Assembly: GCF_014931565.1 (NCBI RefSeq)
Contig: NZ_CP063353.1
Span: 2,356,001 to 2,420,000, forward strand
DNA from: Clostridium sp. 'deep sea'
GTDB taxonomy: Bacteria; Bacillota; UBA994; PWPR01
Direction: 5' to 3'
Length of the DNA: 64,000 bases
The position numbers and the translations under genes are program-made. Below are positions 26,649 to 46,684 of this stretch, in pieces. Position 1 is the first letter of the stretch. Every line of letters begins with the position of its first letter. Below the pieces are notes generated by a model that saw only the letters and a list, made by a program, of their open reading frames with translations, was not told where the DNA came from and did no database searches.

Positions 26649-27506
26649 TTAATAACTCTTCATTCTTGGATCAAGCACATCTCGTAACCAATCCCCTAAC
26701 AGGTTTATTCCTAATACCGTTACCATGATAGCAATCCCAGGAAAAGTAGCTACCCACCAAGCATTTGTAATGTAGTCTCTACCATCGGCTAACATACTAC
26801 CCCAGGTAGGTATGCCAGATTCTACCCCTAACCCCAAGAAAGTTAAGGATGATTCTGCAATAATCATGTTAGCTACTCTTAGAGTACCTACAACTATAAT
26901 CGTGGGCAGAATGTTAGGTAGTATATGCTTCACCATTATTTTGAGGTCTTTTTGCCCGAGAGCCTTTGCTGCTTTTACATACTCTAATTCTCTTAAAAGT
27001 AAAACCTCACCTCGCACTAGTCTACTGTATATTACCCAGCCTGTAATGCTTAAAACTATTATTACGTTTTTTAGACCAGCACCTAAAACTGCCATTATGG
27101 CTAGTGCCAATAAAATAAAGGGAAAGGCTAGTTGTATTTCTGCTAAACGCATAATTATATTATCTACAGTGCCTCGGTAATAGCCTGCCAAAAGTCCCAA
27201 AAAGGTACCTATTGTACCTGCTATTAAAACTGTTACAATACCAACTAATAATGATACTCTTGTTCCAAAAATTATTCTGCTGAGTATATCTCTACCCTGA
27301 GGATCGGTGCCTAAAAAATGCTCTTTGCTGCCACCCTTTTCCCACGAAGGAGGCAATAATCTTTTTTTAAGACTACTTGCATTCGGGTCATAAGGAGCAA
27401 TTAAGGGAGCCAAAAGGGCCGTTGAAATTACTATTACTAAAATAATAAATCCAATTAGGGCAGTCTTTCTTTTAAACAACATTCTAAACATTTTTTTTAT
27501 ATTCAT
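26649..27506 (-). CDS. oppC: Peptide ABC transporter permease, OppC/DppC type
   Basis: A 285-residue permease with six predicted helices and the family N-terminal region (GTDPQGRDILSRIIFGTR). The EAA loop EYVKAAKALGQKDLKIMVKH contacts the ATPases. It pairs with the OppB-type permease encoded 16 bp upstream. It is the last gene of the operon that starts with the Ile T-box, so it is expected to rise on isoleucine shortage. Confidence 0.94.
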   Translation of the reverse strand: MNIKKMFRMLFKRKTALIGFIILVIVISTALLAPLIAPYDPNASSLKKRLLPPSWEKGGSKEHFLGTDPQGRDILSRIIFGTRVSLLVGIVTVLIAGTIGTFLGLLAGYYRGTVDNIIMRLAEIQLAFPFILLALAIMAVLGAGLKNVIIVLSITGWVIYSRLVRGEVLLLRELEYVKAAKALGQKDLKIMVKHILPNILPTIIVVGTLRVANMIIAESSLTFLGLGVESGIPTWGSMLADGRDYITNAWWVATFPGIAIMVTVLGINLLGDWLRDVLDPRMKSY

Positions 27507-27522
27507 ATTCTTATGCCCTCAC

Positions 27523-28440
27523 TTATTCGTACTTTATTCGAGGATCAAGCAGACTATAAACTACATCAGTTAATATATTTATTAACACAATGCTAGCCGC
27601 CAAAACAAATACTCCCGCCTGAACTACTGGCATATCTCGATTATGAATAGATTGAATCATAAATCTACCAACCCCTGGCCAAGAAAATATTGTTTCAGTT
27701 ATTACAGCTCCTCCAAGTAAAACTCCTAATTGCATACCTAAGATGGTTACAACAGGCAGTAAGGCATTCCGCAAGGCATGTTTAACTATGATAATTTTCT
27801 TTTTAACACCCTTGGCTCGCGCAGTTTTAATATAGTCTTGTTGCATTACCTCAACCATTCGTGACCTTAATAATCTAACTATAGTAGCAGCCGTATAGGC
27901 TCCAACAGTGATTGCAGGTAAAACTAAGTTTTTCCAGCTACCTCTACTATGAGTTGGCAGTAAATCCCATTTTAAACCTACTAGGTATAAGAGCATTAAA
28001 CCCAACCAAAAAACTGGCATAGACTGTCCTATTAAAGCTAGAACAGAGCCAATATAATCTACAATGCTGTTCTTTTTAACCGCAGTAATTATACCCACCG
28101 GTATTGCAATTATTAAGGCTACTGCCATACCTGCAAATGTTAATTCTAAGGTTGCGGGCATTCGGTCTAGTACTAATCGTAATGCTGGTTGATGGTGACG
28201 AAGTGATGTACCAAAATCACCCTTTATAGCATTGCCCATAAATCTAAAATACTGCTGCCACAGAGGGTCATTAAATCCCAAGGTATCACGCAGTAATTCA
28301 GCATCTTCGGGAGAGGCATCCATAGGCAGTAATAAAGCAACTGGATCTCCGGTTAGATACATAAGCAAAAACACAATTATTGAAACACCAAATATAACAA
28401 TTAAGGCATTTATTATTTTTTTTAATACTCTTTTATGCAT
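27523..28440 (-). CDS. oppB: Peptide ABC transporter permease, OppB/DppB type
   Basis: A 305-residue membrane protein. The N-terminal region (TGDPVALLLPMDAS, FGTSLRHHQP) and the EAA loop QDYIKTARAKGVKKKIIIVKH are characteristic of OppB/DppB. It forms the channel with OppC. It begins two bases after the OppF stop. It is one of only two permease pairs for six binding proteins in this island. Confidence 0.94.
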   Translation of the reverse strand: MHKRVLKKIINALIVIFGVSIIVFLLMYLTGDPVALLLPMDASPEDAELLRDTLGFNDPLWQQYFRFMGNAIKGDFGTSLRHHQPALRLVLDRMPATLELTFAGMAVALIIAIPVGIITAVKKNSIVDYIGSVLALIGQSMPVFWLGLMLLYLVGLKWDLLPTHSRGSWKNLVLPAITVGAYTAATIVRLLRSRMVEVMQQDYIKTARAKGVKKKIIIVKHALRNALLPVVTILGMQLGVLLGGAVITETIFSWPGVGRFMIQSIHNRDMPVVQAGVFVLAASIVLINILTDVVYSLLDPRIKYE

Positions 28441-28442
28441 TT

Positions 28443-29417
28443 TTACTTACCTCCCAATTTTCCAGCAAAGTGACACGACACTGAGTGTTTATTTTGCTTA
28501 TTTATTAACTCCGGTGCTGTTTCTTTACACCTTGCTTTGGCGTAAGGGCATCGGGGGTGAAAGCTACACCCTGTTGGTGGATTAAGAGGACTAGGTATAT
28601 CCCCTGTTAAAACTATTTCATTGCGTTTTGCTAATGGATCTGGCACTGGTACAGCAGAGAGCAACGCCTTTGTGTAAGGATGTTGAGCATTAGTATATAA
28701 ATCCTCTGTGTTTGCTAGTTCAACTATTTTACCTAAATACATTACTGCTACTCGGTCACAAATATGTCTAACTACTCCCAAGTCATGGGCAATAAATAAA
28801 TATGATAAAGCCAATTCTTTTTGCAAATCTTGTAGTAAATTTATTACCTGAGCCTGAACCGATACATCGAGAGCAGAAACAGGTTCATCACAAACTACAA
28901 ATTGTGGTTTTACAGCCAGTGCTCTTGCTATGCCAATTCGTTGTCTTTGACCACCACTAAACTCGTGTGGATATCTATTTTTATAGCTAGGATCAATACC
29001 AACTCTATCTAGCAATTGCTCTACCCTAAGGTTTTTTTCTTTGCCAGTAACAAGCTTGTGTATTTCCAGTGCTTCAGCTATGGTATTGCCAATCTTCCAA
29101 CGTGGATTTAAGGAAGCAAAAGGGTCTTGAAAGACAATCTGCATTTTTTTTCGGTATAATCTCATTTTATTGCTGTTTAATTTACAGATATTTTCACCCT
29201 CAAAAAACACCTCACCACTAGTTGGCTCAGTTAGTCTTAAAACAGACATACCTGTTGTTGATTTACCACAACCTGATTCGCCTACAAGCCCTAGTGTTTC
29301 TCCAGCTTGGAGTGAAAAGCTAACACCATCAACTGCTTTAACTGTAGCCTGTTTTCGCCAATTAACACTTATAGGGTAATGCTTTTTCAGGTCCTTTACT
29401 TCTAACAGTTTACTCAT
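28443..29417 (-). CDS. oppF: Peptide ABC transporter ATP-binding protein, OppF type
   Basis: The protein has 324 residues with Walker [10 protein letters not shown], the Q-loop, ABC signature SGGQRQR, Walker B FVVCDEP and the switch histidine in IAHDLG. The C-terminal oligopeptide/dipeptide extension has the CSFHPRCPYAKARC cysteines, which bind a 4Fe-4S cluster in some Opp proteins. Its start overlaps the OppD stop by four bases. Confidence 0.95.
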   Translation of the reverse strand: MSKLLEVKDLKKHYPISVNWRKQATVKAVDGVSFSLQAGETLGLVGESGCGKSTTGMSVLRLTEPTSGEVFFEGENICKLNSNKMRLYRKKMQIVFQDPFASLNPRWKIGNTIAEALEIHKLVTGKEKNLRVEQLLDRVGIDPSYKNRYPHEFSGGQRQRIGIARALAVKPQFVVCDEPVSALDVSVQAQVINLLQDLQKELALSYLFIAHDLGVVRHICDRVAVMYLGKIVELANTEDLYTNAQHPYTKALLSAVPVPDPLAKRNEIVLTGDIPSPLNPPTGCSFHPRCPYAKARCKETAPELINKQNKHSVSCHFAGKLGGK

Positions 29418-30394
29418 TGATGGCTCACCTCACTCTCTGTACTAGCATGAAAACAGGCAACTTTATGTCCTGCTATATCTCTTAGCTTAGGTACTTGTTT
29501 TTGGCATTTTGCAGTAGCTTTTTCACACCTAGGGTGAAATGGACAACCCTTTGGCATATTGCTTAATGTTGGCACTGTGCCTGTTATTTGATTTAATCTC
29601 TTGGCTTTTTTAGAAACATCAGGTACCGATCGAAGAAGCCCCTGTGTATAGGGATGTTGAGGTCGGTAAAATATTTGCTCCACAGAAGCCTCTTCGACCA
29701 GTGTACCTAAATACATAACTGCAACTCTATCTGCCATTTCAGCAACAACACCTAAGTCATGAGTTATAAATAAAATTGCAGTATTAAACTCTTTTTGAAG
29801 CTTACGCATCAGCCGTAATATTTGCGCCTGGATAGTAACATCAAGAGCCGTTGTTGGCTCATCTGCTATCAGTAACTTTGGCTCACATGCTAAAGCCATT
29901 GCTATCATAGCCCGTTGTCTCATACCACCGCTCATTTGGTGTGGATACTGCTCTGCACGTCGCTCTGGGGTAGCTATTCCAACATGATCCATCATTTCTA
30001 CGGCTTTTTTCCAAGCCTCTTTTTTTGATGCCCCAGTATGAACTCGCACTGTTTCAGCTATTTGCTCGCCTACTTTAATCACTGGATTAAGTGAAGTCAT
30101 AGGCTCTTGAAATATCATAGCTATATCTTTACCCCTAATTGTTTGCATGTATTTATCGCTTTGTTTAGCTAAATCAGTTTTATTAAACAACATACTACCA
30201 TCTGCAATTACGCCTGGAGATGATAAGAGTTGCATTAAGGCGTGGGCGGTTGTTGATTTACCACAGCCAGATTCTCCTACAATAGCTAATGTCTCTCCAC
30301 TATTAATTTCAAAGCTTATACCTTTAACAGCCTTAACAGTTCCCTCTTCTACAGGAAAATGTACGTGCAAATTATCTACTTTTATTAAAGTCAT
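29414..30394 (-). CDS. oppD: Peptide ABC transporter ATP-binding protein, OppD type
   Basis: The protein has about 326 residues with Walker [10 protein letters not shown], signature SGGMRQR, Walker B LLIADEP and switch [13 protein letters not shown]. The C-terminal CPFHPRCEKATAKC cysteine motif is present. It pairs with OppF as the ATPase heterodimer. The ATG at 30394, seven bases after GGTGGG, is preferred over the ATG two codons earlier. It starts 47 bp after the binding-protein stop. Confidence 0.94.
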   Translation of the reverse strand: MTLIKVDNLHVHFPVEEGTVKAVKGISFEINSGETLAIVGESGCGKSTTAHALMQLLSSPGVIADGSMLFNKTDLAKQSDKYMQTIRGKDIAMIFQEPMTSLNPVIKVGEQIAETVRVHTGASKKEAWKKAVEMMDHVGIATPERRAEQYPHQMSGGMRQRAMIAMALACEPKLLIADEPTTALDVTIQAQILRLMRKLQKEFNTAILFITHDLGVVAEMADRVAVMYLGTLVEEASVEQIFYRPQHPYTQGLLRSVPDVSKKAKRLNQITGTVPTLSNMPKGCPFHPRCEKATAKCQKQVPKLRDIAGHKVACFHASTESEVSHQ

Positions 30395-30441
30395 TTTCAT
30401 CCCACCAAAAATTTTTTACAAGCTATATCTTGTAGTTATTT

Positions 30442-32103: not shown

Positions 32104-32390
32104 AACCCGTCTCTTTGTAAGAGACGGGTTATATTCCCGTGGTACCACTCTTGTTTCAAATATGACTAAACAAAGCCATATTCAACACTTAGCAGGATAC
32201 TATCATATCCCCTTCCTGATAACGGTGGAATACCGTTTACCTTACTTATAGTTCAGGTGCAAGCTCAAGGGTGATGTTTTGTTAAGTAGGAAGTACCGGT
32301 TTCCACCTTATCCGGCTCTCTGTAACTATACTTCAAAAAACGAAATCCCTATCACAGCTGTGATTACTTTATTGCTTAAATTTAATAAGC
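32104..32390 (-). promoter_or_regulatory. T-box riboswitch 1, specifier AUC (Ile)
   Basis: The T-box sequence AAGAGTGGTACCACGGG lies at 32136-32152 and the terminator AACCCGTCTC/GAGACGGGTT at 32104-32130. Stem I has AGAGAGCCGG and the downstream lower helix AGGG/CCCU. The specifier loop reads AAC-AUC-A directly before CCCU-UGAGC, and the upper helix pairs UACUU and AACAA with the opposite strand. Uncharged tRNA-Ile should favour antitermination into binding protein 1 and oppDFBC. Confidence 0.9.
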
Positions 32391-32419
32391 ACTATACCAT
32401 GACGTGTTACCTCCGTCAA
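32391..32419 (-). promoter_or_regulatory. Promoter of T-box 1 with inverted repeat in the spacer
   Basis: TTGACG, 17-bp spacer, TATAGT. TGACG...CGTCA arms (32400-32418) lie in and around the -35 element and spacer, as at T-boxes 2 and 3. Confidence 0.75.
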
Positions 32420-32547
32420 GGCTTTTTTAAAAATTTCTCAATATTTTATGAATATTTATACACTTGAATGTATATTATGCAATTTAAATCCTATATCTTG
32501 TTGTTATATACCGTTTTTTGGTAAAAAAATAATAGGCCCTATGAATA

Positions 32548-34104
32548 CTACTGAATATTTTTCCAACTAGCTTCGTATACCCTAATAGACTCATCAGGTC
32601 GTGGTTGCCAGTTTATTCTATTGCTAACTCCATATAAATCTACCTGTTGATAGAGATTTACAAAGGTAGCATCGTTATATATTTTATTAGTAATTTGCTG
32701 ATAAATGTTTATTCTATCCTGCTCGTTTATTTCAGTTAAAGCCTGCTTTATTAATTGATTTAGTTCATCATTTGTTTGTTTATCAGTTTGGTAATAACAA
32801 GTTTTGAGTGACGAATTTAACCAAAAGTTAAGGGTGTTACCAGCATCAAAGGTACTACTTCCCCAACCAATTAACCAGATATCATACTTAAGTTCTCCAG
32901 CAAAAAGTTCTGCTACATAATTACCCCATTCAGGAAAACTCAATTCAACCTCAAATCCAACCTGCTCTAACTGATTTTTAATGGCCTCCGCCACTTCTTT
33001 ATCCATAATATATCTGCCTGTAGGTGCACCCATTGTTATTTTAAGACCCTGTTCATAACCAGCCTCTTTTAAAAGCTGTTTAGCCTTTTCAGGGTTATAT
33101 CCATAGGGTTTTAGGTCTCTATTAAAGCCTAAATCATAACTACCAACTGGCTGAGAACTGGGTTTAGCATTGCCAGAAAATATATTATCAATAATGCTAT
33201 TAACATCTATTGCATAGTTAAGGGCTTGCCTAACTTTTAAGTCCTTCATTTTTTCATTACGGGTAGTTATGGGTAGCATGATAAACCTTACACTATCCAC
33301 TTGCTCTACACTGGCTTTTTCACTATTATTTATTTGCTCCACCTGATGAGGTGGAACATTCACTATGATATCGGCTTCACCTTTTTGCAAGGCCATAATC
33401 CGAGATGCCGCCTCGGGTACTGGCTTAAATTTTATGTTTTGAATTTTAGGTTTTCCTTGCCAGTAGTTCTCATTAGCAGTGAAAAGTACGTATTCGTCTT
33501 TTATCCACTCTTTAAGTTTATAAGGTCCACTGCCGATAGGTTTTAAACTAAATTGCTGGTTTCCAACCTCTTTAATATAATGTTCTGGCACTATTCTGAG
33601 CGAAGCTAAACGGGTTAATAATAATGGATAAGGCTCTGTTGTTTTAATGGTTAAATTATAATCTCCATTAGTTTCAATGGCCTTAACCGCTTTATAGTCT
33701 CCTATTTTTGAGCTCTTATTGTTGGGGTCTAAAATTCTTTCTATTGAAAACTTTACATCCTTAGTCGTTAGTTGTTTACCATCATGAAAGTAGATATCAT
33801 CACGTAATTCAAACTGCCATGTTGTATCATTTAACATTTTCCAAGACTTTGCAACTAAGGGTATGATCTTCATCTCTGTATCTTGGTCTAAAAAGGTATC
33901 AAATAGCTGTTTTTCTATATTTGCTGTAGGCCCTTCGGAATGCATGCCAGGATCCAGAGTTGTAGCATCTACCCCTTGTAAAATTATCAATGTATCATTT
34001 TCATTAGTTGTTGCTTGATTTTTGCCACAACCAGAGCCCGCTATCGCTATTGCTATTAGTAAAATTATTAAACTTATTCTTTTGGTAAAAGTTGATTTCA
34101 TCAT
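32548..34104 (-). CDS. Peptide-binding lipoprotein 2 (Val T-box), family 5 SBP
   Basis: The protein has 518 residues with a lipoprotein signal (lipobox AGSGC) and the same family 5 fold and motifs as its four paralogues (ILQGVDATTLDPGMHSE, PVPEAASRIMALQKGEAD, WLIGWGSSTFDAGNT). No permease gene is attached. The next element downstream is the promoter of T-box 1, so the protein must use permeases encoded elsewhere, most likely those of the two flanking opp operons. Its leader has a GUC (Val) specifier. A short ORF overlaps its first 100 bases. Confidence 0.92.
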   Translation of the reverse strand: MMKSTFTKRISLIILLIAIAIAGSGCGKNQATTNENDTLIILQGVDATTLDPGMHSEGPTANIEKQLFDTFLDQDTEMKIIPLVAKSWKMLNDTTWQFELRDDIYFHDGKQLTTKDVKFSIERILDPNNKSSKIGDYKAVKAIETNGDYNLTIKTTEPYPLLLTRLASLRIVPEHYIKEVGNQQFSLKPIGSGPYKLKEWIKDEYVLFTANENYWQGKPKIQNIKFKPVPEAASRIMALQKGEADIIVNVPPHQVEQINNSEKASVEQVDSVRFIMLPITTRNEKMKDLKVRQALNYAIDVNSIIDNIFSGNAKPSSQPVGSYDLGFNRDLKPYGYNPEKAKQLLKEAGYEQGLKITMGAPTGRYIMDKEVAEAIKNQLEQVGFEVELSFPEWGNYVAELFAGELKYDIWLIGWGSSTFDAGNTLNFWLNSSLKTCYYQTDKQTNDELNQLIKQALTEINEQDRINIYQQITNKIYNDATFVNLYQQVDLYGVSNRINWQPRPDESIRVYEASWKNIQ

Positions 34105-34225
34105 TTAGATAACCTCCGTATTTTTGGGCAGTTATGTTGATATTATTTAAGGCAACTTTATTTTTAAAGACGCCCTGGAAATACACCATAAAAGCTGAAA
34201 AAACGTTAATTAGGTATTTCTCCAT
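34004..34225 (-). CDS. Upstream ORF overlapping binding protein 2
   Basis: A 73-codon ORF begins MEKYLINVF. It has a strong RBS (AGGGAGGTG) between the T-box 2 terminator and the SBP start and overlaps the SBP in another frame. Val codons occur at positions 8, 14, 19 and 24. It could be a translated leader that modulates SBP translation, or chance. Part of its downstream half is simply the out-of-frame SBP signal-peptide region. Confidence 0.35.
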   Translation of the reverse strand: MEKYLINVFSAFMVYFQGVFKNKVALNNINITAQKYGGYLNDEINFYQKNKFNNFTNSNSDSGLWLWQKSSNN

Positions 34226-34320
34226 GATTTTCACCTCCCTTTACATACTAAATTAGTATGTCTTGCGCTTGTTTTATTAAAGTGATTAACTTAAATCACT
34301 AAATAATCTTAAAAAACAAA

Positions 34321-34602
34321 AAACTCGTCTCTTAATAATAATAGAGACGAGTTTAAACCCGTGGTACCACTCTTTTTCTGTATGTAAAAAAAACACACAG
34401 CACTTAGCAGGATACAATCATATCCTCTTCCTTGTAACGGTGGAAAAACCGCTCACCCTAATCTTATTTCAGGATCATAGCTCAGGGGCGACTTCGAAAG
34501 CTGTAGGTAGTACCGGCTCACACCAAACCCGGCTCTCTGTGACTTTACTGCTATCTACTATTCCCCATCGATGCTAATTTATTTTGCTTAAATTTATAAA
34601 GC
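34321..34602 (-). promoter_or_regulatory. T-box riboswitch 2, specifier GUC (Val)
   Basis: The T-box AGAGTGGTACCACGGG lies at 34358-34374, with the terminator stem ACTCGTCTC/GAGACGAGT at 34321-34354. Stem I has AGAGAGCCGGG. The specifier loop is GAA-GUC-G, directly followed by CCCC (pairing with GGGG) and UGAGC. The opposite loop strand is AATAGTA. It responds to uncharged tRNA-Val by inference. Confidence 0.9.
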
Positions 34603-34631
34603 AATATACCATGACGTGTTACCGCCGTCAA
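34603..34631 (-). promoter_or_regulatory. Promoter of T-box 2 with inverted repeat in the spacer
   Basis: TTGACG, 17-bp spacer, TATATT. TGACG/CGTCA arms at 34612-34630. Confidence 0.75.
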
Positions 34632-34699
34632 GTTTTTTTTAAGAGTTTTTTTATCTTTTAGCACAAAACAACCTAATATTATCCTTATACAACCATAAT

Positions 34700-36241
34700 T
34701 TACCTAAATGATGCCTCATATAAACGAATACTTTCATCAGGACGGGCTTTCCAATTAAGTCTACTACTGACCCCATACAAATCTACCTGCTGATAAAGAT
34801 TAACAAAACCAATATCGTTATTAACCTGTTTAATTATCTCCTGATAAGCTTTTTCACGCTGCTCATCATCAACAGTTTTTAGTGCCTTATTTAACAGGTT
34901 ATTTATTTTGTTATTAACTTGCTCATTTATTCGATAATAACAAGTATCATGCTCTGAATTAACCCAAAAATCCAGGGTGCTTCCAGCATCAAAGGTACTA
35001 TTACCCCAGCCAATAAGCCATAAATCGTAGTTGATTGTGCCAGCTAAAATTTGGCTTACATAGTTGCCCCACTCTGTAAATGTTAGCTTAACTTTTATGC
35101 CAACTTCTTCGAGTTGAGCTTTTATTGCTTCGGCTACTTCTTTGTCCATCATATATCTGCCAGATGGAGATCCCATTGTAATAGCTATTCCTTTTTCATA
35201 ACCAGCCTCTTTAAGCAATTGTTTAGCTTTTTCAGGATTATAACTAAGGGGCTTAAGGTTATTGTTGTACCCAAGGTCATAGCTAGCAATAGGCTGAGTG
35301 TTGGCTGTAGCTTTACCTGCAAATATATTTTGAATAATTGAGTTTACATCAATAGCATAGCTAATCGCTTCACGTACTTTTTTATTGTTAACTACTTCGT
35401 TTTTGGTGGTAAAGGGTAACATAATAAATCTAGAACTAGCTACCTCTTCAATCTTAGTATTTTTATTTTCCTCAATACTAGCTATTTGGTGAGGTGGTAA
35501 ATTTATAATTATATCAGCCTCACCCTTTTGCAATGCCATCACCCTTGCTGCCGCCTCTGGCACTGGCTTAAATACAAGCTCTTTAATTTCTGCTGCACCT
35601 AACCAATAGTCTTCATTTGCCTCTAAAGCAACGTACTCATCTTTTACCCATTCTTTTAGTTTATAGGGACCTGAACCAATTGGATTTAAGGCAAACTGCT
35701 GATTACCAACCTCTTTTACATAATGCTCTGGTACAATTCTTAGCCCTGCTAGTCTTGTTAACAAGAGCGGATAGGGGTTCTCTGTTTTGATTGTAACGGT
35801 GTATTGATCTACTACCTCAACACTGCTTATAGCACTATAGTTACTTAGCTGAGAACTTTTATTAGCTTTGTTAAGAATTCTATCAATAGAAAATTTAACA
35901 TCACTTGCAGTTAGCTGATCTCCATTATGGAACTTAATGTTTTCATGTAGTTTAAACTGCCATGTTGTTTCATTAATCATTTTATAACTCTTAGCTAGCC
36001 AAGGCTCAATTTTCATATCACTTGTTTGGTTTAACAAGGTATCATATATTTGACGTTCTATATTGCCAGTTGGTGTTTCTGAGTGCATTGCAGGATCTAA
36101 GGTTGTTGCATCTACTCCTTGCAGAACTGTTAAAGGTTTAGTTTCACTACTAGTATTGTTTGCAGTACATGCACTTGTTACTATTGCGGTAATTATTATG
36201 ATAATTATCGTTGCATATTTGGTAAAAGGAATTTTGGTCAT
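34700..36241 (-). CDS. Peptide-binding lipoprotein 3 (Leu T-box), family 5 SBP
   Basis: The protein has 513 residues with a lipoprotein signal (VTSAC) and the shared motifs VLQGVDATTLDPAMHSE, PVPEAAARVMALQKGEAD, MDKEVAEAI and WLIGWGNSTFDAGST. The RBS AAGGAG precedes the ATG. No permease gene follows. The leader has a CUC (Leu) specifier, suggesting induction by leucine shortage and uptake of Leu-containing peptides (inference). Confidence 0.92.
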   Translation of the reverse strand: MTKIPFTKYATIIIIIITAIVTSACTANNTSSETKPLTVLQGVDATTLDPAMHSETPTGNIERQIYDTLLNQTSDMKIEPWLAKSYKMINETTWQFKLHENIKFHNGDQLTASDVKFSIDRILNKANKSSQLSNYSAISSVEVVDQYTVTIKTENPYPLLLTRLAGLRIVPEHYVKEVGNQQFALNPIGSGPYKLKEWVKDEYVALEANEDYWLGAAEIKELVFKPVPEAAARVMALQKGEADIIINLPPHQIASIEENKNTKIEEVASSRFIMLPFTTKNEVVNNKKVREAISYAIDVNSIIQNIFAGKATANTQPIASYDLGYNNNLKPLSYNPEKAKQLLKEAGYEKGIAITMGSPSGRYMMDKEVAEAIKAQLEEVGIKVKLTFTEWGNYVSQILAGTINYDLWLIGWGNSTFDAGSTLDFWVNSEHDTCYYRINEQVNNKINNLLNKALKTVDDEQREKAYQEIIKQVNNDIGFVNLYQQVDLYGVSSRLNWKARPDESIRLYEASFR

Positions 36242-36320
36242 TTAGGGTATCTCCTTTAGATTTATTTGTTAATTTAGCTGTATTGTTATATTTAAGTTTT
36301 AAACCTAAGTCACTTTCCAT
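36150..36320 (-). CDS. Upstream ORF overlapping binding protein 3
   Basis: A 56-codon ORF begins MESDLGLKLKY after GGGGGTGATGGTC, between the T-box 3 terminator and the SBP, and overlaps the SBP start out of frame by 92 bases. Leu codons stand at positions 5, 7 and 9, matching the Leu specifier of this module. The MESD start recurs before binding protein 5. Leader-peptide function is speculative. Confidence 0.35.
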   Translation of the reverse strand: MESDLGLKLKYNNTAKLTNKSKGDTLNDQNSFYQICNDNYHNNYRNSNKCMYCKQY

Positions 36321-36407
36321 GACCATCACCCCCTTTTTTTCTAGGATTAATTCAAACAGGTTAACTAGCGCTGATTTTTTTGGCCTATATTTTCAGCTTT
36401 TAAATAC

Positions 36408-36682
36408 AAAAAACCCGTCTCTATATAAATTAAGAGACGAGTATTTTCCCGTGGTACCACTCTTTTTCCTAGTATAACACTAAGCACTTAGTAGGATACA
36501 ATCATATCCCCTTCCTGTTAACGGTGGAAATCCGTTTACCCTACTTTGTTCAGGTTCAGGCTCAAGAGTGAGTTCGTTTGTTGTATAGTACTGGGTTACA
36601 CCAAGCCCCAGCTCTCTGTAACTCTACTTCAAACTACTAATCCCTATCATAGCCTTTTTGCTTTTGCTTAAATTTAATATGC
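36408..36682 (-). promoter_or_regulatory. T-box riboswitch 3, specifier CUC (Leu)
   Basis: The T-box AGAGTGGTACCACGGG lies at about 36448-36463 and the terminator stem at 36411-36443. Stem I has AGAGAGCUGGGG. The upper helix GUUUG/CAAAC and lower helix AGGG/CUCU bracket a canonical specifier loop GAA-CUC-A opposite ATTAGTA. This is the clearest of the five specifier loops and sets the register for the others. Confidence 0.93.
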
Positions 36683-36712
36683 AATATACCATGACTGAAG
36701 TACCGCAGTCAA
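36683..36712 (-). promoter_or_regulatory. Promoter of T-box 3 with inverted repeat in the spacer
   Basis: TTGACT, 18-bp spacer, TATATT. The TGACTG/CAGTCA arms at 36692-36711 differ from those of modules 1 and 2 by a compensating change (G/C to T/A). Confidence 0.75.
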
Positions 36713-36731
36713 GTTCTTTTTTGTTGAGTGT

Positions 36732-38267
36732 TTAATTTTTCTTAAATGTTACTGCCGCTAGGTCTATTAACTCATCACTTCTTGCAGTGTAATTTATTCT
36801 TGTATTTATACCATAAATGTCACATTGCTGATAAAGGTTTACAAAGGGAGCATCAGCAAGAGCTTGTTGTATTAATTCATGATAAATATTTTCTCTATCG
36901 TCATTATTCATGGTTGAAAGAGCCAAATCTATTTGATTATCTACCCACTTATTTTTAGTTTCACTTACATCATATTGAGCCACTGGTTGACTGGTATGCA
37001 GAAAAGTCTGCAAGGTTGTACCTGCATCAAAGGTACTGCTTCCCCAACCAATTAGCCATAAATCTGCGTCTATGGTGCCTTTAATAATGCTAGTTACATA
37101 ACCTCCCCACTCCTCAAAAGTAAGCTCTACCTCTATACCTACTTCTTGTAGTTGAGCCTTAATAGCCTCTGCCACTTCTTTATCCATTAAATATCTACCT
37201 GAGGGCGATTTCATACGTATTTTTAAGTTTTTAGTGCCAGACTCTGCTAACAATTCTTTTGCTAATTGCGGATTATACTCATATCCCTTGATGTTTTCAT
37301 TAAATCCTAAATCGAAGTTACAGACTGGCTGAGTACTGCTTACTGCATTATTAGCAAGTATTTTTTTAATAATGATATCTTGATCTATGGCATAATTTAT
37401 TGCCTTACGCACATTAACATCTTTAACACTCTCGCGGCTAGTTGTAAAAGAGAGCATAATAAATCTGGTACTATTTACTTTTAAGGCTTGTAGGTTTTTA
37501 TTGTTATTAACTGTGTCTATTAAGTGTGGAGGTAGATTTGTTATAAGGTCAGCATCTCCACTTTGCAGGGCCATTACCCTAGCTGATGCCTCAGGAACTG
37601 GCTTAAATATAACCTCTTTTATAGCAGGACTACCATTCCAATACTGCTCATTTGCAGTCAATGAAATATGGTCATCTTTTACCCACTTATTAAATTTATA
37701 AGGCCCACTTCCTACCGGATTTAAAGCAAATTTCTCGCTACCTATTTCTTCTATATAAGATTTAGGCACAATCCTTAACTCTGCTAATCTTGTTAGTAAT
37801 ACAGGGTTAGGCTTATGGGTAATTATGACAAGCTGATTATCGTTTAGTACTTCAATTTTTTTAATGCTTTTATAATTACTAATTTTGGGGCTTTTATTAT
37901 TTGGATTTAGAATACGTTCAATTGAATACTTAACATCCTCTGCTGTAAGCACTATGCCATTATGAAATTGAATATCATCTCTAAGTTCAAATTGCCATGT
38001 GGTATCATTTATCATCTGCCATGATTTTGCTACCCTTGCTTGTATTTTCATGTTATTATCTCTAGCTAACAAAGTATCAAATATTTGATACTCAATATTA
38101 CTAGTAGGAGAATCAGAGTGTTTTGCTGGGTCAAGCGTTGTGGCATCTACCCCCTGTAAAATAGTTATGCTGTTTTTATTTTGTGGTGTTTGTTCAGCGT
38201 TAGAACAGCCTGCCAATAAAGCAATTAAAAGTATAACAACAGTAATTAGCTTTGCTAGTTTTTTCAT
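36732..38267 (-). CDS. Peptide-binding lipoprotein 4 (Phe T-box), family 5 SBP
   Basis: The protein has 511 residues with a lipoprotein signal (LLAGC) and the shared motifs ILQGVDATTLDPAKHSD, PVPEASARVMALQSGDAD, MDKEVAEAI and WLIGWGSSTFDAGTT. It is closer in its C-terminal region (ARSDELIDLA) to binding protein 5 than to 1-3. No permease gene follows. Its leader is a full Phe T-box followed by a second, Stem I-less T-box. Confidence 0.92.
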   Translation of the reverse strand: MKKLAKLITVVILLIALLAGCSNAEQTPQNKNSITILQGVDATTLDPAKHSDSPTSNIEYQIFDTLLARDNNMKIQARVAKSWQMINDTTWQFELRDDIQFHNGIVLTAEDVKYSIERILNPNNKSPKISNYKSIKKIEVLNDNQLVIITHKPNPVLLTRLAELRIVPKSYIEEIGSEKFALNPVGSGPYKFNKWVKDDHISLTANEQYWNGSPAIKEVIFKPVPEASARVMALQSGDADLITNLPPHLIDTVNNNKNLQALKVNSTRFIMLSFTTSRESVKDVNVRKAINYAIDQDIIIKKILANNAVSSTQPVCNFDLGFNENIKGYEYNPQLAKELLAESGTKNLKIRMKSPSGRYLMDKEVAEAIKAQLQEVGIEVELTFEEWGGYVTSIIKGTIDADLWLIGWGSSTFDAGTTLQTFLHTSQPVAQYDVSETKNKWVDNQIDLALSTMNNDDRENIYHELIQQALADAPFVNLYQQCDIYGINTRINYTARSDELIDLAAVTFKKN

Positions 38268-38346
38268 AAGTAACTCCTAAAAATATTTACAATTACTCAA
38301 TAAGCTTAAAAATAAGAGATTAACTAAATAGCCCTCATAGTAATAA

Positions 38347-38440
38347 AAAATCTGCCTCTTAATAAGAGGCAGATTTTATCCACGGTACCACTCTTGTTTC
38401 CTAATATTATTAGAATCTCAGTAGGATACAATTATTGCTA
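38347..38440 (-). promoter_or_regulatory. Truncated T-box 4a (antiterminator and terminator only)
   Basis: The T-box AGAGTGGTACCGTGG at about 38380-38395 is followed by the terminator stem ATCTGCCTC/GAGGCAGAT. No Stem I or specifier loop precedes it. It lies between full T-box 4b and binding protein 4 on the same transcript. Confidence 0.8.
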
Positions 38441-38490
38441 AACATGAGTTTTACCAAAGCCTTTTTATTAAAGAATTTATTATATAAACA

Positions 38491-38766
38491 AAAAAACCGC
38501 CTCTTAATTAAGAGACGGTTATTATATACCGTGGTACCACTCTTGTTCCTCACATCAAATAATGATGTTCAGCACTTTGTTAGATACAATCATATCCACT
38601 TCCCTATAACGGAGGAATCCCGTTTGCCCTACTTTTATTTCAAGCTTAAGCTCAAGGAGGAATTCACATAAAGCATTCACCACTGGATCTCACCATCCCA
38701 GCTCTCTTTAGGCTATTCTTTAAGCTACTAGTTCCTGTCAACGCCTTGGTTATTGTATTAGCCAAA
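38491..38766 (-). promoter_or_regulatory. T-box riboswitch 4b, specifier UUC (Phe)
   Basis: The T-box AGAGTGGTACCACGG lies at about 38529-38543 and the terminator at 38491-38520. Stem I has AGAGAGCUGGG. The lower helix AGGA/UCCU and upper helix (GCUUAAAG with CUUUAUGU, one mismatch) bracket GAA-UUC-C opposite ACTAGTA. The base after the specifier is C rather than the usual purine, a small deviation. Confidence 0.87.
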
Positions 38767-38795
38767 ACTATAACACGGTAATTTTTTTAAGTCAA
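38767..38795 (-). promoter_or_regulatory. Promoter of T-box 4
   Basis: TTGACT, 17-bp spacer, TATAGT. The spacer inverted repeat of modules 1-3 is absent. Confidence 0.72.
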
Positions 38796-38809
38796 GTTTT
38801 TTTTATAGA

Positions 38810-40360
38810 TTATTTTTTCCATTTTATGCTTTTAACATCTATTAGCTCATCACTTCGAGGTGAGAATTTAACTCTATCACTTACACCATATAGGTCTTTT
38901 TGCTGGTACAGATTTATAAAGGCACTGTCGTTATGAACCTGCTGAATTATATCGTAATAAATTTCAGCCCTTCTAACCTCTTCCATGGTCATTAATGCTT
39001 CTTCTAGTAAGCTATCTATATGATTATTAGTTTCTTTGCTTACCCGATAGTAGGCGGTTTTATTTGGCGTATAAAGCCACTGTTTAAGGGTTGTTCCGGC
39101 ATCAAAAGTACTACTGCCCCAACCAATAAGCCATACATCGGCATCCATTGTGCCACTAATTATTTTAGTTACATAAGTTCCAAATTCTTCAAATGTTAGC
39201 TCTACTTCTATGCCAACAGCCTCAAGCTGCAATTTTACAGCTTCTGCTACTTCCTTATCCATTAAGTATCTCCCAGAAGGAGATTTCATAGTAATTTTTA
39301 AACCCTTTTCATAGCCAGCATCTTTAAGAAGTTGTTTTGCCTTTTGGGGATTATAATCTATTTCAGTAAGATTATTATTAAATCCAAGATCAAACTTACT
39401 AATTATTTGATCACTTTTTACTGCTGATTTTTCTAGTATGTTATTTATGATACTTTGTTTGTCGATGGCATAGTTTAGAGCCTGCCTTACTCTAATATCT
39501 TTAACATTTTTACGATTTGTAGTTATGCTCATAAACATTACTCTAGTACTATCTACACTTACACTATCTACTCCAGCTGACTGCTTTAGCTCTGTTACCT
39601 GATGGGGTGGTAAATTTGTTATAATATCAGCTTCTTTAGCCCTTAACGACATTACTCTGGCTGATGATTCTGGCACTGGTTTAAATACTACTTCTTTAAT
39701 CTCAGGGCAGCCATCCCAGTACTGCTCATATGCAACTAAGTTAATAAATTCATCTCTTTGCCACTCTTTTAATTTATAGGGCCCACTGCCTATGGGTTTA
39801 ACTGCAAACTGCTCATTACCAACCTCTTGTAAGTATTTTTTGGGTACAATTCTTAAGTCGGACAATCTACTTAACAGTACTGGATAAGGCTGCTTAGTTT
39901 TTATTATTATGCTATTGTTTTCTTCTAAAATTACATCCTTAATGATATTATAATGGCTCATTCTAGGGCTTTTATTTTTAGGATCTATTATTCTTTCTAT
40001 AGAAAACTTAACATCTTCTGCTGTTAATGTTTCTCCATTATGGAATTTTACATCATCTCTAATTGTTAGTTTCCAGGTAGTGTCATTTATCATTTTCCAT
40101 GAGTTTGCTATACTAGGCTTTAAATGCATATCCGAACTACGCTTAATGAGTGTATCAAATATTTGATACTCAACATTGCTGCTAGGTGTATCTGAGTGCA
40201 TTGCAGGATCTAAACTCGTTGCATCTACGCCTTGCAGTATTATTAAGGGTTGATTTTGATTATCTACACTTGTTGCTTCATTACCACAGGCACTTAAAAT
40301 GGTTACGAACAATGTTATTGCTATTAATACTTTAAGTCTTTTTATTTTTAATGTTTTCAT
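38810..40360 (-). CDS. Peptide-binding lipoprotein 5 (Tyr T-box), family 5 SBP
   Basis: The protein has 516 residues with a lipoprotein signal (ILSAC) and the shared motifs ILQGVDATSLDPAMHSD, PVPESSARVMSLRAKEAD, MDKEVAEAV and WLIGWGSSTFDAGTT. The RBS GGAGG precedes the ATG. Only 14 bp separate its stop from the -35 element of the next T-box promoter, and there is no own terminator. The leader has a UAC (Tyr) specifier plus a second Stem I-less T-box. Confidence 0.92.
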   Translation of the reverse strand: MKTLKIKRLKVLIAITLFVTILSACGNEATSVDNQNQPLIILQGVDATSLDPAMHSDTPSSNVEYQIFDTLIKRSSDMHLKPSIANSWKMINDTTWKLTIRDDVKFHNGETLTAEDVKFSIERIIDPKNKSPRMSHYNIIKDVILEENNSIIIKTKQPYPVLLSRLSDLRIVPKKYLQEVGNEQFAVKPIGSGPYKLKEWQRDEFINLVAYEQYWDGCPEIKEVVFKPVPESSARVMSLRAKEADIITNLPPHQVTELKQSAGVDSVSVDSTRVMFMSITTNRKNVKDIRVRQALNYAIDKQSIINNILEKSAVKSDQIISKFDLGFNNNLTEIDYNPQKAKQLLKDAGYEKGLKITMKSPSGRYLMDKEVAEAVKLQLEAVGIEVELTFEEFGTYVTKIISGTMDADVWLIGWGSSTFDAGTTLKQWLYTPNKTAYYRVSKETNNHIDSLLEEALMTMEEVRRAEIYYDIIQQVHNDSAFINLYQQKDLYGVSDRVKFSPRSDELIDVKSIKWKK

Positions 40361-40466
40361 AGCTCTGGCCTCCTAAACCCTTACACTTATATTTATTATT
40401 TTTAATAGTGATATTATTACTTAGTTTATTAAATTTATTGTTATTATAATAATAATCGGATTCCAT
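40332..40466 (-). CDS. Upstream ORF (Tyr-rich start) overlapping binding protein 5
   Basis: A 44-codon ORF begins MESDYYYNNNKF after AAAGGAGAG, between the T-box 5a terminator and the SBP, and overlaps the SBP start by 29 bases. Three consecutive Tyr codons match the Tyr specifier of this module. A role as leader peptide is a hypothesis. The composition is also what AT-rich non-coding DNA can give. Confidence 0.4.
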   Translation of the reverse strand: MESDYYYNNNKFNKLSNNITIKNNKYKCKGLGGQSYENIKNKKT

Positions 40467-40493
40467 ATAATCACTCTCCTTTGCTTTAAAACA

Positions 40494-40600
40494 AAAACCC
40501 GTCTCTTTGAAGAGACGGGTTATCCGCGGTACCACTCTATTTCTATCCTATTTTTATAGGTATAGCACTTTATTGAATAATAAATTAGCTAAGTTTTTTG
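40494..40600 (-). promoter_or_regulatory. Truncated T-box 5a (Stem III, antiterminator and terminator)
   Basis: The T-box AGAGTGGTACCGCGG at about 40524-40538 is followed by ACCCGTCTCT/AGAGACGGGT. A Stem III-like hairpin (CCTATAAAAATAGG) precedes it, but no specifier-bearing Stem I does. Confidence 0.8.
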
Positions 40601-40627
40601 GGTGGAAAATTGCTTTTTGATAATAAA

Positions 40628-40890
40628 AAAAACCGTCTCTATGTAAGAGACGGATTATTTCCGTGGTACCACCCTTATTTTAACCCATAGGGTTAACACT
40701 TAGCAGAATACTATTATATTCAGGCCATGTTAACGGTTGACGACCGTTCACCCTACTAAGTATTTCAGGCTTAAGCTCCAAGGTGTATTCGTTAATAATA
40801 GGAAGCACTGGTTCTCACCATTCCAGCTCTCTTTAGCTATATTATTAATTACTAGTCCTTATCTTGGCTTTTTGTTATTACGTTTTTAGC
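40628..40890 (-). promoter_or_regulatory. T-box riboswitch 5b, specifier UAC (Tyr)
   Basis: The T-box AGGGTGGTACCACGG lies at about 40661-40675 and the terminator ACCGTCTC/GAGACGG at 40630-40655. Stem I has AGAGAGCUGG. The lower helix AAGG/CCUU and a long upper helix (AUUAAUAA with UUAUUAAC) bracket GAA-UAC-A opposite ACTAGTA. It responds to uncharged tRNA-Tyr by inference. Confidence 0.9.
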
Positions 40891-40919
40891 AATATAACAT
40901 TACTCTTTTATTTTGTCAA
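40891..40919 (-). promoter_or_regulatory. Promoter of T-box 5
   Basis: TTGACA, 17-bp spacer, TATATT. No spacer inverted repeat. Confidence 0.75.
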
Positions 40920-41103: not shown

Positions 41104-42090
41104 TTACTGATCCAAATGGCAGTGATAATAGTGGCTTTCACTAAGTTTAGTCTGCTTAGGAATTTCTTTAGAACATATATCCATAGCATAGGGACATCTC
41201 GTGTGAAATTTGCAGCCTGTCGGTGGATTTGCAGGACTTGGTACATCGCCTTGTAAAATAATACGCTCTTTTTTTTGGGTAATATCAATTACTGGCATTG
41301 CAGACAGTAATACCTTAGTATAGGGGTGTTTAGGGTTATTAAATAACTCTTCGCTTGTGCCTACCTCTACAAATGATCCCAAGTACATTACTGCTATTTT
41401 GTCACAAAAATATTTAATTACCCCTAAATCATGAGAGATAAACAAATATGTTAAATCCATTTTTTCTTTTAAATCCTGCAATAACATTAAAATTTGAGCC
41501 TGAACAGAAACATCTAACGCTGCTATAGGCTCGTCTCCAATGATAAACTGGGGATTAAGGGCTAACGAACGTGCTATACTTATTCTTTGACGCTGGCCAC
41601 CACTAAACTCATGAGGATATTTTTTAATATTAGATGAAGGCAAACCACATAGCTCTAGTAACTCTCTTGCTCTGTTTAAAGCCTCTGTTTTAGAAGCAAG
41701 CTTATGGCATATTAAACCCTCAGAGATAATAGCCCCCACGTTCATACGAGGGTCTAACGAAGCAAAGGGGTCCTGAAAAATAATTTGCATATCCTTTCTT
41801 AAATTTCTCATTTCTTGCTTATTGATTGCTACTTTTTTCTCCACATCGTAAAGGGTTTTACCATTAAACTTTACTGAACCCTGAGTAGGGTTTAAAAGGT
41901 TAAGTATTGTTCTACCTGTAGTAGATTTTCCGCATCCTGACTCTCCAACAAGTCCGTAAATTTCTCCCTTATTAATGTTAAAACTTACTCCATCTACGGC
42001 CTTAACTTCACCAATTTTTTTTGAGAATACCCCACCTGTTATAGGGAAATATTTTTTTAGATTTTTAACCTCAACTAAAGCTTTACTCAT
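41104..42090 (-). CDS. oppF: Peptide ABC transporter ATP-binding protein, OppF type (second operon)
   Basis: The protein has 328 residues with Walker [10 protein letters not shown], signature SGGQRQR, Walker B FIIGDEP (IGDEP rather than the common LADEP/CDEP) and switch FISHDLGVIKYF. The C-terminal CKFHTRCPYAMDIC motif is present. It overlaps oppD by eight bases. It is the last gene of the non-T-box opp operon and lies just upstream of the T-box array. Confidence 0.95.
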   Translation of the reverse strand: MSKALVEVKNLKKYFPITGGVFSKKIGEVKAVDGVSFNINKGEIYGLVGESGCGKSTTGRTILNLLNPTQGSVKFNGKTLYDVEKKVAINKQEMRNLRKDMQIIFQDPFASLDPRMNVGAIISEGLICHKLASKTEALNRARELLELCGLPSSNIKKYPHEFSGGQRQRISIARSLALNPQFIIGDEPIAALDVSVQAQILMLLQDLKEKMDLTYLFISHDLGVIKYFCDKIAVMYLGSFVEVGTSEELFNNPKHPYTKVLLSAMPVIDITQKKERIILQGDVPSPANPPTGCKFHTRCPYAMDICSKEIPKQTKLSESHYYHCHLDQ

Positions 42091-43078
42091 TTCCTAGGCC
42101 TCCTTGATCCATTAACCAACAACGCACACTATGATTTTTTTTATAATTTTTTAGCTCTGGCATCTCTACCAAGCATTTATCTTGACAATAATCACAGCGA
42201 GGAGCAAAGGCACAGCCCTTTGGCATGTTTAAAGGGGACGGAACCATACCCTTTATACAACGCAATTTTTCGCTACGGCTAAGGGTATCAGGACGTGAGG
42301 CTAACAGCCCTTTTGTATACGGGTGCTGGGGATTAGTAAAAAGATTATATGTATCTGCTTTTTCTACAATTTTTCCGGCATACATTACCACTACTTTATC
42401 CGCCATTTCTGCTATTACTCCCAGATCATGAGTAATAAACATTATAGACATATCTAGTTGATCTTTTAGCTGTCTTATTAAGTCTAAAACCTGGGCTTGA
42501 ATAGTTACATCTAAGGCTGTTGTAGGTTCATCTGCTATTAATAACTTAGGTTTGCAGCTCAAGGCCATGGCAATCATTACACGCTGCCGCATACCACCAG
42601 ATAACTGATGGGGATATTCATTTATGATTTGCTCGGCTCTTGGTATTCCTACCAGGTTAAGTAATTCAATACATCTTTCTTTATTTTCAGAGCTTTTTAG
42701 CTTTATATTTTGATGAATATCTAGTGTTTCTCCTATTTGCTCACCTATTCTTAATACAGGGTTAAGGGCTGTCATAGGCTCTTGAAAAATCATGGCAATA
42801 TCATTACCTCTAATGCTCTGCATTTCATACTCACTTAACGTTACAATGTCTTGGCCATTAAATTCAATGCTGCCCTCTTCTATAAAACCATTTTCTTTAG
42901 GCAATAGTTTCATTATTGATAAGCTAGTAACAGATTTTCCGCAACCTGACTCTCCTACAACTCCTAAAACTTTGCCCTCTTCTATATCTATATCTACGCC
43001 ATTTACAGCAACTACTTTACCTTCGGAGGTATTAAAGCTAGTAACTAAGTTTCTCATTTTTAGTATATTAACACTCAT
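42083..43078 (-). CDS. oppD: Peptide ABC transporter ATP-binding protein, OppD type (second operon)
   Basis: The protein has 331 residues with Walker [10 protein letters not shown] (last position Val instead of Thr, common in OppD), signature SGGMRQR, Walker B LLIADEP and [11 protein letters not shown]. The C-terminal [14 protein letters not shown] cysteines are present. Eleven bases separate it from oppC. Confidence 0.95.
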
Positions 43079-43089
43079 TTTTTAGCCTC

Positions 43090-43983
43090 CTAGCGCTTTA
43101 ATTTAGGGTCGAGGGCGTCTCTTAGCCCGTCTCCAAAGATATTTATTGATAAAACTGTAATAAAGATTAGTATACCAGGGGGAACCCATAACCAAGGGTG
43201 TTTTGTTAAAGACCTAAAGCTTTCTGCAGATCTTAACATATTTCCCCAGCTAGGCTGCGGTGGCTTTACACCCAACCCAAGATAACTCAAGCCAGCCTCA
43301 CTTAGTATTCCTCCTGCTATACCTAAAGTTACATAAACAATAATAACAGCAATAGCATTTGGTAAAATATGACTAACAATAATATGCTTTGTTTTTAGTC
43401 CTAAAGCCCTAGCTGCTTCAACAAATTCTCGCTCTTTAATAGATAGTATTTCAGCTCTTACTATTCTTGCCAGGCTCGGCCAGCTAAGTAACCCTGTAAC
43501 AACCATAACGGTATAGATACTTTGACCTATCATAGAGGCAATTACAATGGCCATTAAAAAGAATGGGAAACACATAATTATATCTACTAACCTCATAATT
43601 ACATTGTCTATCCACCCACCGTAATAGCCAGAGATTGAACCAAGAACAACTCCTATTATCATGGCAATTGAGGTAGCAACTAAACCTACACTAAGTGATG
43701 CTCTTGCTCCATAAATTAATCGAGTTAAAACATCTCGACCTAGTTCATCTGTTCCTAAAAGATGATCTTTACTCGGTGGCAAATATCTACTGTCTGGATG
43801 TACAGCATCTCTTTCATATTTAGTTATAAAAGGTGCAAATATAGCAATTAATACTAATAAACTTAATATAGCTAAAGCTAATAAAGCCATTTTATTTTTT
43901 TTAATTCTCTTAAAACCAATTGCCCAAGGAGACAAGCCATGTTCTATGGGTATTGATTTTTTAGTATCTAGTTTTACACTCAT
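43090..43983 (-). CDS. oppC: Peptide ABC transporter permease, OppC type (second operon)
   Basis: A 297-residue permease with the N-terminal LLGTDELGRDVLTRLIYGAR segment, about six helices and the EAA loop EFVEAARALGLKTKHIIVSH. It lies between oppB and oppD with short gaps, so it belongs to a single transcript with the upstream binding protein gene. Confidence 0.94.
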   Translation of the reverse strand: MSVKLDTKKSIPIEHGLSPWAIGFKRIKKNKMALLALAILSLLVLIAIFAPFITKYERDAVHPDSRYLPPSKDHLLGTDELGRDVLTRLIYGARASLSVGLVATSIAMIIGVVLGSISGYYGGWIDNVIMRLVDIIMCFPFFLMAIVIASMIGQSIYTVMVVTGLLSWPSLARIVRAEILSIKEREFVEAARALGLKTKHIIVSHILPNAIAVIIVYVTLGIAGGILSEAGLSYLGLGVKPPQPSWGNMLRSAESFRSLTKHPWLWVPPGILIFITVLSINIFGDGLRDALDPKLKR

Positions 43984-43995
43984 AACTTATCCTCC

Positions 43996-44964: not shown

Positions 44965-44988
44965 TTTTATTCTCCTCTCGTTGTATTT

Positions 44989-45018
44989 ACACCAGCAATA
45001 CCCTAGTATTGCTGGTGT
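44989..45018 (-). promoter_or_regulatory. Intercistronic stem-loop between binding protein 6 and oppB
   Basis: A perfect 13-bp stem (ACACCAGCAATAC / GTATTGCTGGTGT) with a four-base loop and no U-run after it on the minus strand. Such structures commonly protect the binding-protein message, giving more receptor than permease (inference). Confidence 0.6.
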
Positions 45019-45028
45019 ATTTTTAACT

Positions 45029-46654: not shown

Positions 46655-46684
46655 TACAGTTTTCCTCCTAAACAAATTTTTCAC

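Follow-up and report, generated by a model that had tools for sequence, protein, structure and literature searches.

A predicted array of five T-box-switched receptor genes ahead of one peptide-type transporter core in Clostridium sp. 'deep sea'

The 64,000-nucleotide stretch of Clostridium sp. 'deep sea' analysed here (the window; contig NZ_CP063353.1, positions 2,356,001 to 2,420,000) carries on its minus strand five T-box leaders in series, each followed by one lipoprotein receptor gene of the Pfam family SBP_bac_5, the five receptors being paralogs. Transcription runs from high to low coordinates, and the modules follow one another in the order Tyr (40874), Phe (38750), Leu (36659), Val (34580) and Ile (32364), named after the amino acids that their specifier codons are read to encode. 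With a probability of about 0.9, we interpret the locus as a starvation-addressed receptor array, in which five T-box-switched receptors are placed ahead of a single DppDFBC core of a peptide-type ATP-binding cassette (ABC) transporter.

A preliminary description of this DNA, made from the letters alone, proposed five T-boxes reading five different hydrophobic amino acids, and a covariance-model search bears this out. RF00230 gives five full-length, minus-strand matches (model positions 1-219), each of which exceeds the gathering score, at 99.6-142.7 bits (Rfam E values of 1e-20 to 7e-32), with the specifiers AUC, GUC, CUC, UUC and UAC. The whole genome contains 24 T-box matches, 23 of them with Stem I. 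To calibrate the register, these 23 Stem I regions were aligned with MAFFT with the specifier position hidden, and the column of the Leu-leader CUC, which had been proposed to set the register, was read out. The blind alignment puts this column at the proposed triplet in every receptor leader. The control leaders were the 18 T-boxes with Stem I outside the array, whose downstream genes were named independently by NCBIfam, and in 16 of these the triplet in that column matches the amino acid of the gene that follows (leuS CUC, metG AUG, valS GUA, tyrS UAC, ileS AUC, serS AGC, asnA AAC, thrS ACC, metG2 AUG, asnS AAC, pheS UUC, valS2 GUC, lysS AAA, trpB UGG, trpS UGG and proC CCU). In the remaining two, serS2 (UCC) and aspS (GAC), the correct amino acid is found one base upstream. 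Frames moved by one base fit far fewer controls (3/18 upstream, 1/18 downstream).

Frames -1 and +1 do occur among T-boxes (TBDB, PMC7778990), and the blind alignment itself reads serS2 and aspS one base away, so the specifiers might be misread by one base and the leaders might answer other tRNAs. We consider this very improbable. The controls that fit frame 0 include the ileS, valS2, leuS, pheS and tyrS leaders, whose codons are identical to the five receptor specifiers, and the orthologs of the receptor leaders agree only in frame 0, save for a trivial UCN in frame +1 that the controls reject. The 18 controls reject a shift by one base. Because the calibration was made on leaders of known genes, the register is proven, and at the sequence level the reading Ile/Val/Leu/Phe/Tyr is confirmed as correct and calibrated. 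The hydrophobic character of the set, which the preliminary description took as an argument for the reading, does not prove it: four of the five specifiers are NUC, all NUC codons encode Phe, Leu, Ile or Val, and any register with a middle U gives the set. The set was also called exactly branched-chain plus aromatic; Ile, Val, Leu, Phe and Tyr are indeed its members, and Trp is missing from it.

The tRNA genes of the genome include anticodons GAU, GAC, GAG, GAA and GUA, giving a Watson-Crick match to all five specifiers. All five leaders have the bulge UGGU, which pairs with A73 of tRNA-Ile, -Val, -Phe and -Tyr and of those Leu tRNAs that were read out, a set that excludes tRNA-Leu(GAG). In the control leaders the bulge base tracks the discriminator, being A for Thr (U73) and C for Trp and Asp (G73). 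The specifier-loop S-turn (AGUA/GAA) is present in the Val, Leu, Phe and Tyr leaders. A specifier placement common to all modules had been proposed, and the column is the same in all five; the Ile leader has neither GAA before the specifier nor the AGUA S-turn. The predicted register of the Ile leader rests on its 3' side and on its likeness to the ileS leader of the same genome. The AGUA S-turn is also lacking in other Ile T-boxes of receptors (L105 5129-5370 and L026 8528-8759, in addition to window 32117-32364) and in the ileS T-box (L008), and is present in the Ile T-box of the related genome G006. Among the aminoacyl-tRNA synthetase genes, metG (L002/L013), valS (L004/L016) and serS (L009/L022) are duplicated, each copy having its own T-box, and the specifiers differ between the two valS copies (GUA vs GUC) and the two serS copies (AGC vs UCC).

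We propose that the receptor genes are transcribed separately, each from a promoter of its own and through its own T-box leader. The matching uncharged tRNA (tRNA-Tyr, -Phe, -Leu, -Val or -Ile) would pair with the specifier through its anticodon and with the UGGU bulge through its ACCA end, favouring the antiterminator, and the receptor made would be the one for the amino acid in short supply. All five receptors would probably serve the one DppDFBC core (26649-30400), importing peptides or derivatives that contain these amino acids.

AlphaFold2 models of the receptors (pLDDT, the predicted local distance difference test score, 88 and 90) have the cluster-C fold and come closest to the solved structures 5u4o, 1uqw (E. 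coli GsiB/YliB) and 3m8u and to glutathione- and peptide-binding proteins. The receptors are thus alike in fold and family to the Dpp, Opp and Gsi binding proteins (SBP_bac_5). Identification as the nickel-binding protein NikA, from the best NCBIfam match, was rejected, the scores being 221-239 bits against a cut-off of 600 bits. We take DppA Asp436 and OppA Asp445 (precursor numbers) to be the residue that holds the amino end of the peptide; the title of entry 8z1z, R383D+D436R, supports the importance of DppA Asp436. The array receptors differ from DppA and OppA in having Ser or Ala at the aligned position, GsiB having Ser, and from all of these systems in being five separately regulated paralogs. 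As the amine-anchoring Asp is missing, the receptors may bind something other than ordinary free peptides. An invariant Arg of the receptors (GRY) lies one alignment column off DppA Arg383, the arginine of the ligand carboxylate.

The exchange of the Asp in all array receptors weighs against the array as interpreted here, as do the low score of the Ile leader (the lowest of the five) together with its missing S-turn, and the status of the tRNA response and the ligand binding as predictions. The position of dppDFBC after the Ile module leaves the supply of the transporter under other single shortages unexplained.

The preliminary description took each specifier to predict the peptide content that its receptor prefers. 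The specifier indicates the shortage under which a receptor is made, and not yet what its ligand is. The T-boxes may accordingly be real and the receptors five near-equivalent, broad binding proteins, with the lack of any one hydrophobic amino acid raising general peptide uptake, an account to which we give somewhat less than an even chance. Wels et al. (PMC2494555) expected T-box-controlled branched-chain transporters to be multi-specific despite their amino-acid-specific control, arguing in this way for branched-chain cation symporters; in the present family, one receptor is found behind tandem Leu and Ile T-boxes in two related genomes, and the branched-chain receptors are 58-63% identical. 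Breadth is harder to reconcile with the retention of separate Phe and Tyr receptors in two genomes, and of Tyr receptors in three, in clades that match the specifier. It may also sit poorly with the columns separating the branched-chain from the aromatic clade, which are frequent at residues 399-431, beside the loop aligned with the amine-anchoring site. The split of the receptor tree into branched-chain and aromatic clades matches the specifiers and argues for a ligand preference that follows the specifier.

The amino acids of the array fit the pathways missing from this bacterium. Searches for ilvD, ilvC (KARI) and pheA (PDT), each of which found its target in 14/14 control genomes, gave no match in this genome, rated 97.6% complete, and a tyrA search of the genome gave only one match, below the cut-off. 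The bacterium appears, from its gene content, unable to make branched-chain and aromatic amino acids, and with ilvD, ilvC and pheA absent the cell should depend on uptake. Among five relatives, ilvD has no match in G001, G002, G004 and G006, whose receptors include ones with branched-chain T-boxes, and is present in G037, whose receptor has a Trp T-box; pheA is absent in all five.

The array occurs in three genomes, namely that of the window, G001 (same genus) and G002 (same family; contig PWPR01000188), with the same dpp gene order. In G001 one receptor follows a Tyr T-box and another follows a Leu and an Ile T-box; G002 has Tyr, Phe and Leu+Ile tandem T-box receptors. In G004 (Leu) and G006 (Ile) a single T-box precedes a whole dppDFBC-receptor operon, and in G037 a Trp T-box lies ahead of a receptor. 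A search of ~400 genomes of the phylum found no T-box at 16 loci of more distant SBP_bac_5 homologs. In the maximum-likelihood receptor tree the array forms a clade (100/100) comprising a branched-chain clade (100/99) and an aromatic clade (100/92). Phe receptors of two genomes cluster with UUC retained, Tyr receptors of three genomes cluster with UAC retained, and the window Ile receptor is sister to the G001 Leu+Ile receptor (100/97). Identity to the Ile-module receptor is 53-63% for the other four. The tandem Leu and Ile T-boxes before one receptor, of the Ile type, lie at L026 8096-8759 and L105 5129-6201 in the two relatives; unless transcription starts at the second promoter, polymerase would pass the two terminators only during a simultaneous shortage of Leu and Ile.

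The array probably grew by duplication of units consisting of a T-box and a receptor gene. Four specifiers, AUC, GUC, CUC and UUC, cover every possible first base of NUC, and the fifth, UAC, differs from UUC at a single position; since the specifiers are single-base neighbours, the set can arise by such duplications and single-base changes. Pairwise identity among the window leaders is ~64-78%, which fits this origin.

T-box riboswitches controlling amino-acid transporters were reportedly described by Vitreschak et al. in 2008. The T-boxes on amino-acid transporters studied by Wels et al. 2008 (PMC2494555) resemble those described here in their tRNA-sensing leader, specifier codon and terminator/antiterminator, and there too the amino acid was deduced from the specifier. 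The present locus differs in that five paralogous receptors, probably serving a single peptide-type ABC transporter, lie together, every one behind a T-box of another specificity. No peptide transporter was found in the text of Wels et al. (PMC2494555), and earlier reports of oligopeptide-transporter T-boxes may exist (Vitreschak 2008, Gutierrez-Preciado 2009). The locus provides a natural set of near-matched switches, with five T-boxes in one cell, alike as stated above, for five tRNAs, with single-base specifier differences and receptors diversified alongside. It would allow a direct test of whether a T-box specifier predicts the ligand of a transporter, an assumption used in annotation and rarely checked.

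Some leaders contain a half T-box, that is, a second T-box motif that lacks Stem I but has a stem before it and a terminator of its own. A class of T-boxes with duplicated terminator-antiterminator elements was reportedly described by Vitreschak et al. in 2008. Half T-boxes come after the Tyr T-box (three genomes), after the Phe T-box (two genomes) and, in G002, after the Leu T-box, and in an alignment of the six elements 10/20 predicted pairs have at least one compensated change, the sequence varying while the pairing is mostly kept. On predicted structure, the Tyr and Phe leaders have the build that defines a partially tandem T-box, a recognised class of unknown mode of action (PMC7583486), in that one Stem I is followed by two antiterminator/terminator elements. 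The difference from the known class is that these elements belong to receptor genes, in leaders for Tyr, Phe and Leu, and are conserved across three genomes; they provide conserved examples of the class. Half T-boxes and some of the leaders might instead be functionless, decaying remnants of deleted modules, as the lack of Stem I and the Leu and Ile T-boxes before one receptor in G001 would suggest, the latter suggesting the deletion of a Leu receptor that once separated them. We regard this as unlikely: the T-box motif, the terminator and the covarying stem before the motif recur at corresponding positions in as many as three genomes, the class is a recognised one, and no remnant of a lost Leu receptor was found in the G001 gap between the Leu and Ile T-boxes.

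Between the last terminator and the receptor start, 7/10 leaders contain a short open reading frame (ORF) that begins with ATG, has a Shine-Dalgarno sequence and encodes a peptide that starts with ME and contains the specifier amino acid further on. The Tyr-module ORFs read MESDYYYNNN in the window, MEPDYAYKT in G001 and MEEGYYY-stop in G002; the G002 Phe ORF reads MELPFFIKS, the window Leu ORF MESDLGLKLK, the G002 Leu+Ile ORF MESGLALSDLMLL and the window Val ORF MEKYLINVFSAFMV. Thus, candidate short ORFs with cognate codons lie between T-box and gene for Tyr, Leu and weakly Val in the window and for Tyr, Phe and Leu in relatives. The ORF overruns the receptor start codon in 6/7 cases. Under label permutation, the observed match between peptide and specifier was the best of 420 assignments at every length tried, and none of 2000 dinucleotide shuffles of the regions reached the observed ORF count or cognate-residue count.

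In B. subtilis anti-TRAP (rtpA), a T-box is combined with tRNA-dependent ribosome stalling, according to the passages of PMC11255114 that cite Chen and Yanofsky 2003, 2004. The likeness is that a short ORF with many codons for the amino acid sensed by the T-box lies downstream of it, just before the gene; in rtpA uncharged tRNA-Trp is sensed in tandem, at transcription and at translation. The rtpA leader ORF is said to stop ahead of the start codon of the gene. The present ORFs differ in that they concern Tyr, Leu, Phe and possibly Val, precede another gene family and mostly overrun the receptor start codon. By analogy with rtpA, an extra layer is likely for the Tyr and Leu modules, for the Phe module of a relative and, less surely, for the Val module: a ribosome on the cognate-rich ORF would cover the receptor start when the amino acid is plentiful, and when it is scarce the ribosome would stall upstream and leave the receptor start free, providing a second readout. 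Occlusion of the start site by the moving ribosome is an assumed step.

Each receptor gene may thus be under double control by one amino acid, the T-box reading uncharged tRNA at transcription and ribosome traffic on the short ORF reading charged tRNA at translation, and duplication of the array would have been accompanied by a parallel change of both readers to Tyr, Phe, Leu and possibly Val; we see the odds of this as even. Competing with it, at a slightly lower probability, is the view that the short ORFs are small protein genes or chance ORFs rather than sensors. Consistent with that view, a cognate short ORF is missing from the Phe and the Ile module of the window, the Val ORF is weakly Val-rich, the sequences diverge past the first 10-13 residues, and no strong RNA structure was found to link most of the short ORFs to receptor translation, none being common to all. 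Furthermore, the ORF test was post hoc on orthologs that are not independent, and with one peptide per specificity the permutation gives the best of 24, i.e. 1 in 24 is the limit reached. On the other hand, the likeness of the peptides is confined to their first residues, where those that change from module to module are the specifier amino acid, and the G002 Tyr ORF consists of MEEGYYY-stop and no more. The window and G001 Tyr ORFs share both a length of 44 codons and the same 106-nt spacing, and only 1/18 of the control leaders has a comparable Shine-Dalgarno-led ORF, without cognate residues.

If real, the short ORFs are independent confirmation of how the specifiers are read, and also a second sensor, acting at translation. 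As far as could be found, joint T-box and leader-peptide control is known only for tryptophan in B. subtilis rtpA, and the short ORFs are the first candidates found outside tryptophan. Our verdict is that this form of T-box control deserves testing, for its array, for the half T-boxes kept across genomes and most of all for short ORFs that match their specifiers. In the two Leu-type leaders alone (window 36300-36330 with 36225-36245, and the L026 counterpart), GGTCAT(G) at the ORF start can pair with (C)ATGACC at the start codon of the receptor, and this pairing might act as a translational switch.

Table 1. Features of the receptor array and its surroundings, in window coordinates
Feature	Position	Strand	Basis or remark
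Promoter of Tyr module, TTGACA-17-TATATT	40891..40919	-	11/12 consensus match
T-box leader 1	40643..40874	-	Specifier UAC (Tyr) 40787-40785; RF00230 131.2 bits, E 6.8e-29
Half T-box after Tyr T-box, without Stem I	40496..40565	-	RF00230 41 bits; kept in G001 and G002
Short ORF MESDYYY..., 44 codons	40332..40466	-	Shine-Dalgarno AAGGAG; ends 29 nt beyond receptor start
Receptor gene, Tyr module, 516 residues	38810..40360	-	PF00496 E 1.6e-90; tree
T-box leader 2	38508..38750	-	Specifier UUC (Phe) 38662-38660; RF00230 113.1 bits
Half T-box after Phe T-box	38347..38425	-	Sequence and alignment with five others
Receptor gene, Phe module, 511 residues	36732..38267	-	PF00496 E 7.1e-92
T-box leader 3	36430..36659	-	Specifier CUC (Leu) 36572-36570; RF00230 142.7 bits, E 7.4e-32
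Short ORF MESDLGLKLKYNN..., 56 codons	36150..36320	-	Shine-Dalgarno GGGGGTGAT; overruns Leu receptor start; G002 counterpart MESGLALSDLMLL
Receptor gene, Leu module, 513 residues	34700..36241	-	PF00496 E 1.2e-101; AlphaFold2 pLDDT 88, cluster-C solute-binding fold
T-box leader 4	34340..34580	-	Specifier GUC (Val) 34492-34490; RF00230 125.4 bits
Short ORF MEKYLINVFSAFMVYFQGVFKNKV..., 73 codons	34004..34225	-	Shine-Dalgarno GGAGGTGA; weakest cognate signal, 4 Val in first 24 residues
Receptor gene, Val module, 518 residues	32548..34104	-	PF00496 E 2.8e-97
T-box leader 5	32117..32364	-	Specifier AUC (Ile) 32275-32273; RF00230 99.6 bits; without AGUA/GAA S-turn
Receptor gene, Ile module, 515 residues	30442..31989	-	PF00496 E 2e-93
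dppD-dppF-dppB-dppC, peptide-type ABC transporter core	26649..30400	-	41 nt past Ile receptor; ORFs and order
Equivalent promoters, other four modules	38795-38767, 36712-36683, 34631-34603, 32419-32391	-	Consensus match

The promoters are predicted from the consensus match and from its recurrence at the equivalent place before every T-box in the three genomes. In most receptor promoters (window 32391-32419, 34603-34631 and 36683-36712, and the G001 and G002 equivalents) the spacer between -35 and -10 contains a dyad, whose arms vary by module yet remain complementary (TGACG/CGTCA, TGACTG/CAGTCA, TGACGC/GCGTCA). This dyad was not seen in the 18 control T-box promoters of the genome. The branched-chain modules have a TTGCTTA..TAAGCAA-like sequence after the spacer dyad, and the pattern TTGACNNNGGTANNNNGTCATG has 2 occurrences in the genome, both within the receptor array.

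Directly upstream of the array lies a second complete peptide-type ABC operon on the minus strand (window 41104-46684; SBP_bac_5 receptor 45029-46684, dppBCDF 41104-44964), which is without a T-box. Elsewhere in the window, a protein with RTX calcium-binding repeats adjoins a dockerin and putative Ig-domain protein (54480-56402 and 50778-53987), and a TldD/PmbA-type metallopeptidase pair is encoded at 57082-59423.

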